A stretch of DNA of 42,823 nt. It comes from an uncultured Candidatus Berkelbacteria bacterium (GTDB lineage: Bacteria; Patescibacteriota; UBA1384; CAILIB01). This document shows, piece by piece, positions 22,752 to 26,335 of this stretch. The translations under genes and the position numbers were made by a program. The notes beneath the pieces are model-generated. The model was not told where the DNA came from and searched no databases. It worked only from the letters and a program-made list of their open reading frames with translations. The stretch lies in assembly GCA_903834195.1 (NCBI GenBank), contig CAILIB010000023.1:1-42823 (forward strand). The letters run 5' to 3'. The first letter of the stretch is position 1. Every line of letters begins with the position of its first letter.

Positions 22752-24308
22752 ATGACACTATACCGCCAGTACCGCTCATCTTCGTTCCAAGAACTCATCG
22801 GCCAAGACACCGTTGTAACCCTGTTACAAAATGCCCTCGCCCAAGGCAGGCTTGCTCATGCCTATTTGTTCAGTGGACCACGTGGTACCGGCAAAACATC
22901 AACCGCGCGCTTGCTTGCAAAAGCTGCGACGTGTTTAGAGCCCATCCGTGAGAAAAAAGGTGATAAAATTACGACCTTCGAGGCATGTAATATATGCGCT
23001 TCCTGTGTCAGTCAAATCGAGAATCGTGCCCAAGATATAATTGAGATAGACGCAGCCTCTAACAGGGGTATTGAAGACATTCGTGAGCTCAGAGAGCAGG
23101 CTTCCTACCCTCCAGTACAGTTACGGTACAAGATTTACATCATCGATGAAGTCCATATGTTGACCACCGAGGCATTCAATGCCTTGTTAAAGACATTGGA
23201 AGAACCAGCTCCACAAACCATTTTTATTCTTGCAACCACTGAACTTCATAAAGTACCTGCAACCATACGTTCGCGTTGCCAACTACTCCGTTTTCAGTCC
23301 GGAACCATTGCTGCAATCACCACCAAATTGGCAAAAATTGTTGCAGCCGAGAAATGGAATGTTGAATCTGAGGCACTCACCTTAATTGCAGAACACGCCC
23401 AAGGAGGTTTCCGTGATGCTGAAACTTCTCTCGAACAGCTTGCAACTCAAATTCAACCCCTTACTGCGAGTGCAGTTACCAATGCTTTTGGCGTACTCCC
23501 ACAACAAAGTGTTGAGGAATTACTCACATTGTTACTGGCAAAAGACGCTCAGGCAGCCTATACCCAACTCGCGACCCTCACAGCTCTTCCCTCAGTTCGA
23601 CCAGAGCAACTCACACTTCAGCTTATAACTACGATACGTCGTCGTATTGGAGCTCCTGGCATAGATGATCTCCATCTTACCTATGGACTGAGCCAACTAC
23701 TCGAAGCTTATATTCTTCACCGGAGCAGCCCAACCCCAACATTACCATTAGAGATCGCCTGTCTAAATATCGCCCAATTCGGTTCAACTAGGGCTGAAAT
23801 TCAACCAATAGTTCAGCAACCACAGGCAAAGCCAATCCTTCCAGCCATTGAACAACATGTCGGAATTGTTGAAGCCCCTCCCCGAAAGCAAACTCCTCCT
23901 CACCGAACCACTCTTCCAGAAGTCATGATTAGCACCACGCCGTCACCACGCTCAGACGTGCCTGTGGTTGAACTTCGTGAAGTAGCCATCTCCGATATCC
24001 GCACAGCTTGGAAAGAAATGATCTTAGATATGGGACGCGAGCATCAAGCCCTCGCCCAAATGCTCCGAGAAACCATCTTCCACAGTGTTGAAGAAGTTGG
24101 TATTACTATTCATGTCCGCTTTAAATTTCACGTTGAAAAGTTAAGTGAAAAGAAAAATAAGGCCCGCGTCGAAGACCTTCTGTACAAACTTACCCACACC
24201 AAATGGGGCATCACCTATCTTCTGACTGAAAATATGCCAAAACGAGCAGCCACAAAAGAAATACATGCCAACGCAAGCGATGCCGCCGCTGTATTTGGAT
24301 CTAATTAA
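22752..24308 (+). CDS. dnaX: DNA polymerase III subunit gamma/tau
   Basis: Clamp-loader ATPase of 518 residues. Walker A SGPRGTGKTS is at 41-50, the zinc cysteines at 61, 79, 82 and 85, Walker B (YIIDEVHML) near 131, and the SRC motif (ATIRSRCQ) near 178. Domain III and a Pro-rich tail with a short C-terminal domain follow. No clear A-rich slippage site is seen in the linker, so a short gamma form is not predicted. Divergent from pilB; the ferredoxin gene follows five bases later. Confidence 0.97.
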   Translation: MTLYRQYRSSSFQELIGQDTVVTLLQNALAQGRLAHAYLFSGPRGTGKTSTARLLAKAATCLEPIREKKGDKITTFEACNICASCVSQIENRAQDIIEIDAASNRGIEDIRELREQASYPPVQLRYKIYIIDEVHMLTTEAFNALLKTLEEPAPQTIFILATTELHKVPATIRSRCQLLRFQSGTIAAITTKLAKIVAAEKWNVESEALTLIAEHAQGGFRDAETSLEQLATQIQPLTASAVTNAFGVLPQQSVEELLTLLLAKDAQAAYTQLATLTALPSVRPEQLTLQLITTIRRRIGAPGIDDLHLTYGLSQLLEAYILHRSSPTPTLPLEIACLNIAQFGSTRAEIQPIVQQPQAKPILPAIEQHVGIVEAPPRKQTPPHRTTLPEVMISTTPSPRSDVPVVELREVAISDIRTAWKEMILDMGREHQALAQMLRETIFHSVEEVGITIHVRFKFHVEKLSEKKNKARVEDLLYKLTHTKWGITYLLTENMPKRAATKEIHANASDAAAVFGSN

Positions 24309-24312
24309 TCAT

Positions 24313-24630
24313 ATGCCTGAAAATATCCCACACTCAGTCGCCGTTGATCGTGAAATGTGTCAAACTGCTGCAATTTGTTTGGCGTATAATATTTACGAAC
24401 TAGATGACGAGTCAAAAGCCATCCTTTTAACCAAGAACGGCTCAAATTCTGATGACCCATCAAATATTCTTGCCACCCGAGACGGCTTCGTGAATATTAC
24501 CGATCTACTGAATGGTGAGAGCAAAACTCTTGAGGAAATGCAGGAGATGGTTTTAGAATCTGCCAAACTATGTCCTTTCAATGCGATTATTGTGCGCGAT
24601 GCCGAAGGTAATCAACTGTGGCCGATCTAA
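24313..24630 (+). CDS. Ferredoxin, single-cluster three-cysteine type
   Basis: Small electron carrier of 105 residues. Cysteines occur as MCQTAAIC (Cx5C) near residues 16-22 and as LCPFNAI near 88, the layout of single-cluster ferredoxins in which the middle ligand is missing, so a [3Fe-4S] cluster or a fourth non-Cys ligand is expected. The centre carries a long insert (about residues 35-75) with no cysteine. I chose the ATG four bases after the dnaX stop; the frame is open further upstream inside dnaX. The role is unknown, and no redox partner is adjacent. Confidence 0.85.
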   Translation: MPENIPHSVAVDREMCQTAAICLAYNIYELDDESKAILLTKNGSNSDDPSNILATRDGFVNITDLLNGESKTLEEMQEMVLESAKLCPFNAIIVRDAEGNQLWPI

Positions 24631-24703
24631 AGTAGCCACGATAACTTGCTGGTCCTCACACCAAAAATGGTGTTCCGGAGGCAAGTTATCGTGGCTACTT
24701 TTT
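24629..24703 (+). terminator. Large hairpin 1 of 3, also a likely intrinsic terminator
   Basis: A 21-bp perfect outer stem (24629-24649 with 24681-24701) starts at the ferredoxin stop codon and ends in a TTTTT run. Inside, TCC (24653-24655) pairs GGA (24677-24679), then TC and TCC form an internal loop, then a 6-bp stem ACACCA/TGGTGT closes an AAAA loop. The inner architecture repeats in the next two hairpins. Confidence 0.9.
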
Positions 24704-24722
24704 CCTTCAGAACAAAGGACTG

Positions 24723-24768
24723 TTCACTACTGTCCTCGTCATAAAAATATGACTCCGGAGGTAGTGAA
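24723..24768 (+). repeat. Hairpin 2 of 3 with the same internal loop
   Basis: Outer stem TTCACTAC/GTAGTGAA (24723-24730 with 24761-24768), then TCC/GGA pairing, the TC and TCC internal loop, and a 6-bp inner stem GTCATA/TATGAC closing AAAA. Stem sequences are unrelated to hairpin 1, but loop positions are identical. Confidence 0.85.
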
Positions 24769-24799
24769 AAGCTCTATTTATTTCGACCTATTACACTTG

Positions 24800-24847
24800 A
24801 TTACACTAGTCCTCGCATTGGAAAGAATAATGCTGCGGAGTTGTAAT
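24800..24847 (+). repeat. Hairpin 3 of 3 with the same internal loop
   Basis: Outer stem ATTACA/TGTAAT (24800-24805 with 24842-24847), TCC/GGA (24810-24812 with 24837-24839), internal loop TC and TGC, and a 5-bp inner stem GCATT/AATGC with a 9-base loop. It is slightly degenerate compared with the first two and ends 11 bases from the mscL stop. Confidence 0.75.
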
Positions 24848-24857
24848 TTACTAAAAG

Positions 24858-25232
24858 TTACTTCTTTGTAAGAAGCGTTTCGTTTTTCAGCACCAATTTT
24901 GCCACAACATATACAATTGCAGCGATAATCAGAAAGGTCAGCAACGCACTCAGCACTGCCCCCACCTTAAACACCGCAGCACCAACTGAGAACTGGAGTG
25001 TTTGTAGGGCTGTCTGTGGCGCCAGAAGCGAAATAAGCGGGGTTACAATATCATCTGCCAGCGCTTTTACGAAATCATTAACCGAATTTGCAAGAATCAC
25101 ACCAACGGCTAGCGGCAAGATTCCATAATCTCGCACAAAATCAAAGAAGCCCCGGGCAATGCCCGAGCGCTTCTTTGGTGGACGCTGATTTTCTTGAACC
25201 GCAGATTGTGTGTGGTCAACAGCAGAATCCAT
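24858..25232 (-). CDS. mscL: Large-conductance mechanosensitive channel MscL
   Basis: Pressure-release channel of the inner membrane, 124 residues. The TM1 signature GILPLAVGVILANSVNDFVKAL and the ADDIVTPL segment identify the family; TM2 is near residues 90-113. The N-terminus carries an extra charged stretch of about 25 residues (HTQSAVQENQRPPKKRS) before the usual amphipathic helix. I chose the ATG at 25232, five bases after the upstream gene ends; the frame is open further upstream but overlaps that gene. It is the second gene of an operon with an exported multi-pass protein. Confidence 0.93.
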   Translation of the reverse strand: MDSAVDHTQSAVQENQRPPKKRSGIARGFFDFVRDYGILPLAVGVILANSVNDFVKALADDIVTPLISLLAPQTALQTLQFSVGAAVFKVGAVLSALLTFLIIAAIVYVVAKLVLKNETLLTKK

Positions 25233-25237
25233 AGAAC

Positions 25238-26335
25238 TTATACTCGAGCCAAGAAGATGCTCAAGAATGTTACAAGAGAACCAAAGCCGAGGAATGAAAC
25301 AAAGAAATATGCATACAACCATTTACGAATAGTAACTGGAATTGTTGCTTCTTGTTTTGTAACTTCGAGAGCAGCAAGTTTGCGACTCATTGTGAAGCTG
25401 TACACCAGCTGAAGTGCAGCCAAGAGTACATAAATAACTACTAAGACAAAGGCAATGCCAACCCAACCAACCTTATTTAAGTAGGTATACCCACCAATGA
25501 ATGTAAGAAACAGTCCGACCCAGGTAAAGATTCGGCTATATGGTTGAAGTTTGATAAGTACATATCCTGCCATCTTCATACGGTTTGCAAGGAAGGAGAA
25601 GATTTGTTCAATCAACCAGATTCCCATAAGAACTGCGAAACCAACGAAGAACATCAACGCACCAAAGGTTGCAGGCTTAAATGTGAATGGTGTAACACCA
25701 CCGTACGAATCAGTCTTTACACGAATCCAAGCACCAAGGTGTGTGAATAGGTCTCCAGCTGTCCAGGATGCTCCATCACCAAACTTAATTGTAAAACTTG
25801 AGGTAAGACCAGTCTGATCAAGAACAATAAGGTAATATGTCTTACCCTTACTAAGCTTGTAATGACCACTCGCATACTGAGTAAAGCTCTCCATAAGTAC
25901 AGGCTCGTTCACTACTGCAGTAGTAGCTGTAACAAGCACACTGTGATAGCCACCAGTTGTTGGAAGTGGAATTTGAAGACCGCTGTCGGTTGTATTTGCT
26001 GTTGAGTCAACCATGATAAGGGTTGGTTGTGCAGCAGAACTTTCTGTACTAGGTACAAGGAGTGAGAATGTTTGCTCACCATCTTGACTCGGCACAAAAC
26101 TGTAAATATCGACAGGAGTTGGTGCTAAAAGCTTACCGTACAAGGCATGATTCCCATACACATCACCAATTGCCTCAAGTGACCCACCTGTATCACTTAC
26201 GTATGGATTGTTACCACTTCCAATCTGAGTACCAGTATCAAACTGTGGTGAAGCAGCCAAAACTGCCGCGGACGGGATGGCAAATGTTGCCAGCAAGGCC
26301 ACTACTGCTAAAAGAGAACGACTGCGCTGCTTCAT
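25238..26335 (-). CDS. Exported multi-pass membrane protein, unknown function
   Basis: 365 residues. A signal peptide (about 1-28, ending PSAAVLAA) precedes an extracellular domain of about 190 residues that looks like a beta sandwich (YSFVPSQDGEQTFSLLVP, HYKLSKGKTYYLIVLDQTG), similar in style to pre-peptidase C-terminal domains. Four membrane helices fill residues about 220-363. A good ribosome site (AGGAG) precedes the ATG. It is cotranscribed with mscL, so it may sense or protect the envelope. I do not know the family. Confidence 0.8.
   Translation of the reverse strand: MKQRSRSLLAVVALLATFAIPSAAVLAASPQFDTGTQIGSGNNPYVSDTGGSLEAIGDVYGNHALYGKLLAPTPVDIYSFVPSQDGEQTFSLLVPSTESSAAQPTLIMVDSTANTTDSGLQIPLPTTGGYHSVLVTATTAVVNEPVLMESFTQYASGHYKLSKGKTYYLIVLDQTGLTSSFTIKFGDGASWTAGDLFTHLGAWIRVKTDSYGGVTPFTFKPATFGALMFFVGFAVLMGIWLIEQIFSFLANRMKMAGYVLIKLQPYSRIFTWVGLFLTFIGGYTYLNKVGWVGIAFVLVVIYVLLAALQLVYSFTMSRKLAALEVTKQEATIPVTIRKWLYAYFFVSFLGFGSLVTFLSIFLARV

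Follow-up and report, generated by a model that had tools for sequence, protein, structure and literature searches.

What holds together three hairpins that share their internal loops but not their stems, and what do such structures do at the end of a gene? The question is raised by a locus in an uncultured Candidatus Berkelbacteria bacterium, analyzed here as a window, i.e., the whole stretch of 42,823 nucleotides, that corresponds to contig 23 of its genome assembly (G000; 1.13 Mb, 46 contigs, 76% complete). Genes were called as longest open reading frames. Profile matches identified the two that flank the hairpins as a ferredoxin-like gene on the + strand (24265–24630; PF13459, E 3e-5), whose 3′ end adjoins the array, and mscL on the − strand (24858–25322; PF01741, E 1.5e-14), convergent on the far side of the array, in agreement with the first-pass annotation of this DNA.

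Read directly from the + strand, the hairpins have outer stems of 21, 8, and 6 bp and inner stems of 6, 6, and 5 bp around fixed loops, just as that annotation had described. The left arm of the outer stem of hairpin 1 begins AAAGTAGCC and spans positions 24629–24649, overlapping the 3′ end of the ferredoxin-like gene; all of its 21 bp are paired. It is followed by the left part of the module, TG-G-TCC-TC (24650–24657, with TCCTC at 24653–24657), the inner stem-loop ACACCA-AAAA-TGGTGT (24658–24673, arms at 24658–24663 and 24668–24673), the right part of the module, TCC-GGA-G (24674–24680), and the right arm of the outer stem (24681–24701), which ends in TTTTT and is the predicted terminator of the + strand gene. 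Hairpin 2 (24723–24768; 52.7 bits with the covariance model) has an outer stem of 8 bp (24723–24730/24761–24768), the left module T-G-TCC-TC (TCCTC at 24733–24737), the inner stem GTCATA/TATGAC, and the right module TCC-GGA-G (TC-CGGAG at 24754–24760). Hairpin 3 (24800–24847; 61.0 bits) has an outer stem of 6 bp (24800–24805/24842–24847), the left module CTAG-TCC-TC (TCCTC at 24810–24814), the inner stem GCATT/AATGC, and the right module TGC-GGA-G (TG-CGGAG at 24834–24840). Neither hairpin 2 nor hairpin 3 carries a strong T-run. The module common to the copies reads CUNG-UCC-UC-[inner stem]-U(G/C)C-GGA-G, and the asymmetry below UCC/GGA, with a longer left side (CUNG) and a single nucleotide on the right (G), is also conserved, a feature absent from the earlier description.

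The 261-nt hairpin region folds far more stably than its shuffles (z = −8.3 for the + strand and −9.8 for the − strand). Hairpin 3 is the weakest of the three, and the minimum-energy fold of the + strand holds only its inner stem. Within the window the core pattern was found three times against 1.1 expected, and three or more times in 10 of 100 shuffles, which is not significant alone. A simple terminator-consensus scan, which allows loops of up to 8, passed over the window hairpins because theirs are longer. At gathering scores the window had no match in Rfam 15, the hairpin region and other copies gave only irrelevant weak matches, and searches for the motif found no account of it in the literature covered; the annotation had likewise known no named motif with this loop. 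The skipping-rope RNA (RF02924), a hairpin motif that accompanies terminators and has long, variable stems, is similar in this general respect. Tested separately, its covariance model had no match in the window's genome even at E 10, and cmscan of the copies returned none. Hairpins 1–3 are members of a stem-loop family of gene ends that lies outside Rfam.

Across the window's genome, the pattern GTCCTC..TSCGGAG had 15 matches versus none for a reversed-pattern control. The inner stem was perfect in all 15, with 4–6 bp and loops resembling AATAAT, TAAATAYT, or GGAAWARAAT, and nearly all had an outer stem, the longest of 26–28 bp. A covariance model (R1) retrieved 20 copies at E ≤ 1, and nearly identical tips were carried on unrelated outer stems. 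One copy (L005; contig 15, 23171–23200) is a flipped motif hairpin at a 3′ gene end, opposite AT-rich DNA that contains DnaA-box-like sequences, possibly the dnaA/oriC region. The annotation had also suggested that the triplet might work as a unit, which is not borne out here, as nearly all other copies are single, and tandem pairs or triples (contig 29 of the same genome, L154 in G003, L284 with three units in G160, and L310/L315 in G167/G169) are a minority. The window triplet may instead have arisen by local multiplication of one unit 3′ of the ferredoxin-like gene. Its closest parallel, between rnhB and yraN in G160 (L284:2140–2290), has three tandem units with a period of about 50 nt.

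A covariance-model search of related genomes, which the annotation had proposed as a check, yielded further copies with paired stem changes. In the taxonomic family of the window's genome, two other genera clearly carry the motif, one with a longer conserved tip, GGAnC..TTTSGARTCC (G002), and one whose inner stems are minimal, as in GG-TTTTA-CC (G003). A third (G001) has a variant in which UCCUC..USCGG and the AAAAAT/AATAAT loops recur. Nothing else was found at E ≤ 1e-4 among 55 genomes of the window's class, which range from 0.5 to 1.3 Mb. Across genome contigs the short gapped pattern gave many chance matches, of which a stem filter left one real case, in Mageeibacillus (L114), and through this case a Bacillota clade was found. 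A good-looking match on another contig (L111) was rejected as a further carrier, as the rest of its genome had no second copy. Mageeibacillus sp. UBA3781 (Bacillota, Oscillospiraceae) holds about 16 to 22 copies in its genome. A second model (R2), for which 51 copies from the two groups were combined, yielded at least 401 matches (E ≤ 1e-3) across 23 genomes, i.e., UBA3781 and 22 others of its genus, with per-genome counts from at least 1 to at least 41 (lower bounds, 51 candidates being scored per genome). The Bacillota family was represented by 92 further genomes, most of which had none and 17 of which had one to four, again with 51 candidates scored in each. These scans covered the window's own class and family and one Bacillota family; 16 stretches of viral contigs were also matched, none with both stems, and nothing convincing was found on the plasmids and phages searched. 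The module is therefore present in two very distant phyla, with dozens of copies per genome in the Bacillota clade. The outer junction takes two forms, each present in both phyla: GC-UGG-UCC .. GGA-G-GC (type A) and UCRCURG-UCC .. GGA-RUCGYUCC (type B). Two sites (L313:8430–8530 and L336:9900–9990) are composite, with the left half of a type A hairpin and, immediately behind it, a complete type B hairpin, as if one had replaced the other.

Paired changes were frequent in every set of copies, in inner as well as outer stems. Double-change cells numbered 63 against 22 ± 4 after shuffling for the 15 copies of the window's genome, 206 against 78 for the Bacillota genus, and 269 against 89 for the 51 copies from two phyla. 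UCC/GGA was invariant in the 15 copies and paired in 100%, 100%, and 98.7% of cells, respectively, although this invariance is partly built in, the copies having been found by searching with that core. The earlier reading of fixed internal loops within freely varying stems as a real, conserved, and dispersed structural motif is borne out by these copies.

Where the copies lie points to their function. The typical distance from a stop codon to a copy is 10–50 nt. According to ARAGORN predictions and the 3′ flanks as read, many tRNA genes of the window's genome have a near-perfect hairpin of about 15 bp within 1–2 bases of CCA, and the motif hairpin occupies that slot behind tRNA-Leu (CAG, CAA, and TAG, with TAA degenerate), tRNA-Ser (CGA), and tRNA-Arg (GCG and CCT), in every case oriented so that the module lies on the same strand as the tRNA. 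Other copies lie directly 3′ of protein genes. Among 103 copies of the Bacillota genus (80 regions), 40 were between convergent, 48 between codirectional, and 7 between divergent genes. Four or more T were present in the 3′ arm of 82 of 100 Bacillota copies versus a background of 14%, and 69 copies had both A4+ and T4+. At one orthologous locus, G156 carries a plain hairpin with a T-run behind it in place of the motif hairpin of G162. Gene neighbors, the other check that the annotation had proposed, were diverse, with copies at the 3′ ends of both protein and tRNA genes; these unrelated genes with no common pathway argue against the ligand-binding, riboswitch-like role that it had considered. 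The family displays what is expected of intrinsic terminators, i.e., a GC-bearing hairpin with a U-run inside or behind it, 3′ of a gene. It resembles them in its position behind stop codons and tRNA 3′ ends, in its A-run and T-run arms, and in its enrichment between convergent genes, but plain intrinsic terminators do not have the conserved interior double loop and second stem near the tip. The A-run/T-run palindromes, the stop-codon and tRNA slots, and the convergent sites therefore amount to the anatomy of bidirectional terminators, and this anatomy strongly suggests that the copies are mostly bidirectional intrinsic terminators, so that the family probably consists of two-way transcription stop signals. 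The suggestion that hairpin 1 doubles as a terminator agrees with this, as the motif overlaps predicted terminators and the right arm of hairpin 1 ends in a T-run. The generalization that the module always lies on the transcript strand did not hold after uninformative convergent contexts had been excluded and flipped codirectional copies counted.

The manner in which the stems change bears on what maintains them. In the Bacillota genus, the position of orthologous copies is often kept while their stems differ, as with the inner GGTC/GACC of G055 versus GGCC/GGCC in G162 and G156, where the outermost arms also differ. Structured RNA is expected to show paired changes in conserved helices, and these are present; an excess of GU over AC, expected of an RNA structured on one strand, is not. 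Specifically, GT:AC mismatches in the outer stems of motif hairpins were about equal (19:27 and 104:83) and the inner stems had almost no GU. For isolated mismatches in the window's genome, tRNA-linked motif hairpins had 0 GT and 4 AC versus 12 GT and 0 AC in plain tRNA terminators (p 0.0005), a comparison of small numbers from two slightly different aligners, and in the Bacillota genus alone motif hairpins had 20:15 versus 33:17 in plain terminators (p = 0.5, no clear difference). Opposite orientations were seen in 14 of 90 orthologous pairs (pairs that are not independent). Between G155 and G161 (L341 versus L348), which are 96.4% identical over 3 kb and collinear over 18 kb, the hairpin is inverted in place, so that the spacer between near-perfect arms is reversed relative to a close relative, as template switching would leave it. 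Two loci offer filled and empty forms, namely rnhB-yraN (filled in G167 and empty in G169, with flanks 91–94% identical) and a second locus (G156 versus G167). At both, the left arm is present in the empty form, to which the core and an inverted copy of this arm are added in the filled one; deletion of the core and right arm would leave the same pattern. A GAAAAT direct repeat at rnhB-yraN fits insertion with target duplication and deletion between repeats alike.

Template switching in DNA is documented to generate perfect stems in one step, to homogenize arms, and to invert spacers (PMC8794818; PMC8604942), and the wobble symmetry, the occurrence of both orientations, and the filled and empty pairs fit such a process. 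Since template switching can make compensating stems, paired changes are weaker evidence for RNA selection, and the argument that unrelated stems around fixed loops indicate a selected RNA is weakened accordingly by the lack of an RNA-type wobble bias, the two orientations, and the one in-place inversion. The likeness to the documented hairpins extends to perfect stems, multi-base paired changes, and inversion of spacer or loop. On the other hand, those hairpins reflect a mutational process, whereas here a specific internal loop survives in hundreds of copies. Homogenization should erase such asymmetric loops, and their retention therefore indicates selection; it is the best evidence both for selection and for a putative recognizing factor.

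We consider it somewhat better than an even chance that the family is a dispersed, mostly bidirectional class of terminators in which an asymmetric double internal loop is conserved close to the tip and the stems are shaped by template switching. The outer stem with its A-run and T-run would end transcripts, as its anatomy strongly suggests. Template switching in DNA would make the outer stems and keep them perfect, one arm being templated by its partner or by flanking DNA, and would also invert the tip in place, so that the stem sequence could drift freely while pairing stays. The fixed loops would still need selection, probably by a bound factor; a candidate factor might recognize the folded tip, with the transcript 3′ end or extruded or single-stranded DNA as its putative target. 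Several points speak against this explanation. Such a tip is unnecessary for terminator function, strong selection by a putative agent has to be assumed for the asymmetric loops, and the filled and empty pairs can be read as deletions. Paired stem changes are the usual proof of a selected RNA structure, and if DNA template switching may largely produce them here, the constraint may be carried by the unpaired loops, with in-place inversion visible between close relatives. With its hundreds of copies, the family offers a natural setting in which these two causes of covariation can be told apart, and it marks a non-Rfam hairpin motif at the gene ends of small-genome bacteria and of a Bacillota clade.

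A possible alternative, though clearly a less probable one, is an RNA-level 3′-end element, the tip of which would bind a protein or nuclease in the transcript (in 3′-end protection, tRNA trailer processing, or sRNA-like recruitment) and the stems of which would be under RNA selection. The uniform orientation of the tRNA-linked copies and the sense lean of codirectional Bacillota copies (31 sense to 17 flipped, not independent) suit such a role better than they suit the terminator explanation, and paired changes at orthologous sites (L263 versus L274/L277) are also in its favor, but the missing GU excess, the wobble-poor inner stems, and the flipped or inverted orthologous loci oppose it. The wobble symmetry, the tolerated inversion, and the scarcity of GU in inner stems speak instead for a role in DNA. 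Still more tentatively, the tip could be the recognition site of a candidate reader of folded DNA (a cruciform or single-stranded hairpin) at gene ends in two distant phyla, with outer stems derived from fold-back copying of the flanks. If true, this would define a class of intergenic elements by a code of unpaired loops rather than by sequence or stem.

It seems unlikely that the copies are a mobile or selfish palindromic repeat (REP-, BIME-, or MITE-like) that inserts at gene ends and is a terminator by chance. Many sites are orthologous across species, no copies were found on the phages, plasmids, and viral contigs searched, and the copies have no common outer-stem sequence, which a copied repeat would require, although the presence or absence of a copy at rnhB-yraN in close relatives, the patchy distribution, and the near-identical tips on unrelated outer stems in the window's genome would suit a repeat. 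A REP/RAYT system was rejected specifically. REP/BIME elements with a RAYT (TnpA-REP) are likewise dispersed, palindromic, and placed at gene ends in tens of copies per genome, but here the stems are unrelated between copies, no foot tetranucleotide was seen, and no Y1/RAYT transposase (PF01797, E 1e-5) was found in the motif-rich genomes G000, G002, G003, and G055 or, within the Bacillota genus, in 19 of 23 genomes. Folded single-strand recombination sites used by an integrase, like attC sites of integrons, are very improbable: structure conserved over sequence, variable stems, fixed unpaired bases, and tandem copies are shared features, but the conserved bases differ, the attC R-box consensus (RYYYAAC/GTTRRRY) was not visible by eye in the copies read, and the copies sit at terminator positions behind conserved housekeeping genes and tRNA genes, the order of which is stable, with no cassettes seen by eye. 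A coincidence of ordinary terminators with look-alike tips, as the non-significant count within the window alone might suggest, is refuted by the genome-wide and Bacillota counts and retains a negligible probability.

Other conserved sequences were observed at gene ends. Behind the terminators of tRNA-Ser(GGA), -Pro, -Ile, -Glu, and -Met in the window's genome lies a conserved block of about 110–190 nt containing GGGAAAGGGGTCGGGAAAAC..GTTTTCCCGTGGAGGAAAGCAG (L193:6480–6660, L178 behind 3797, L182 behind 9770, L194 behind 16830, and L177), which starts as the antisense of the T-arm of that tRNA, ends as a copy of the tRNA 3′ end, and in several cases is followed by another hairpin. An Rfam search of this block gave no match; such blocks are perhaps tiny gene-less elements integrated at tRNA genes. 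A second, different conserved block, ..CCAGGTTCGACCACGCC..AGTTAGCGCAACRCTTCT..GTGAGCGTCC, whose start likewise resembles an antisense T-arm, lies behind the terminators of about 10 other tRNA genes of this genome (L180:8140–8290, L183, L186, L191, L198, L196, L188, and L177). On contig 45 (L193:6560–6650) a pseudo-tRNA that ends in a tRNA-Ser 3′ end (TTCGATTCCTCTCCCTCTCCGCCA) precedes a motif hairpin that differs little from the one behind tRNA-Ser(CGA) on contig 15. Finally, another gene-end hairpin with a conserved tip, GAGACTCGGACAGTTTTTGCTTCGCAAAAAACTCGTCTC, was observed in the Bacillota genus (L296/L299 and L302), from which several families of conserved-tip terminators may exist.
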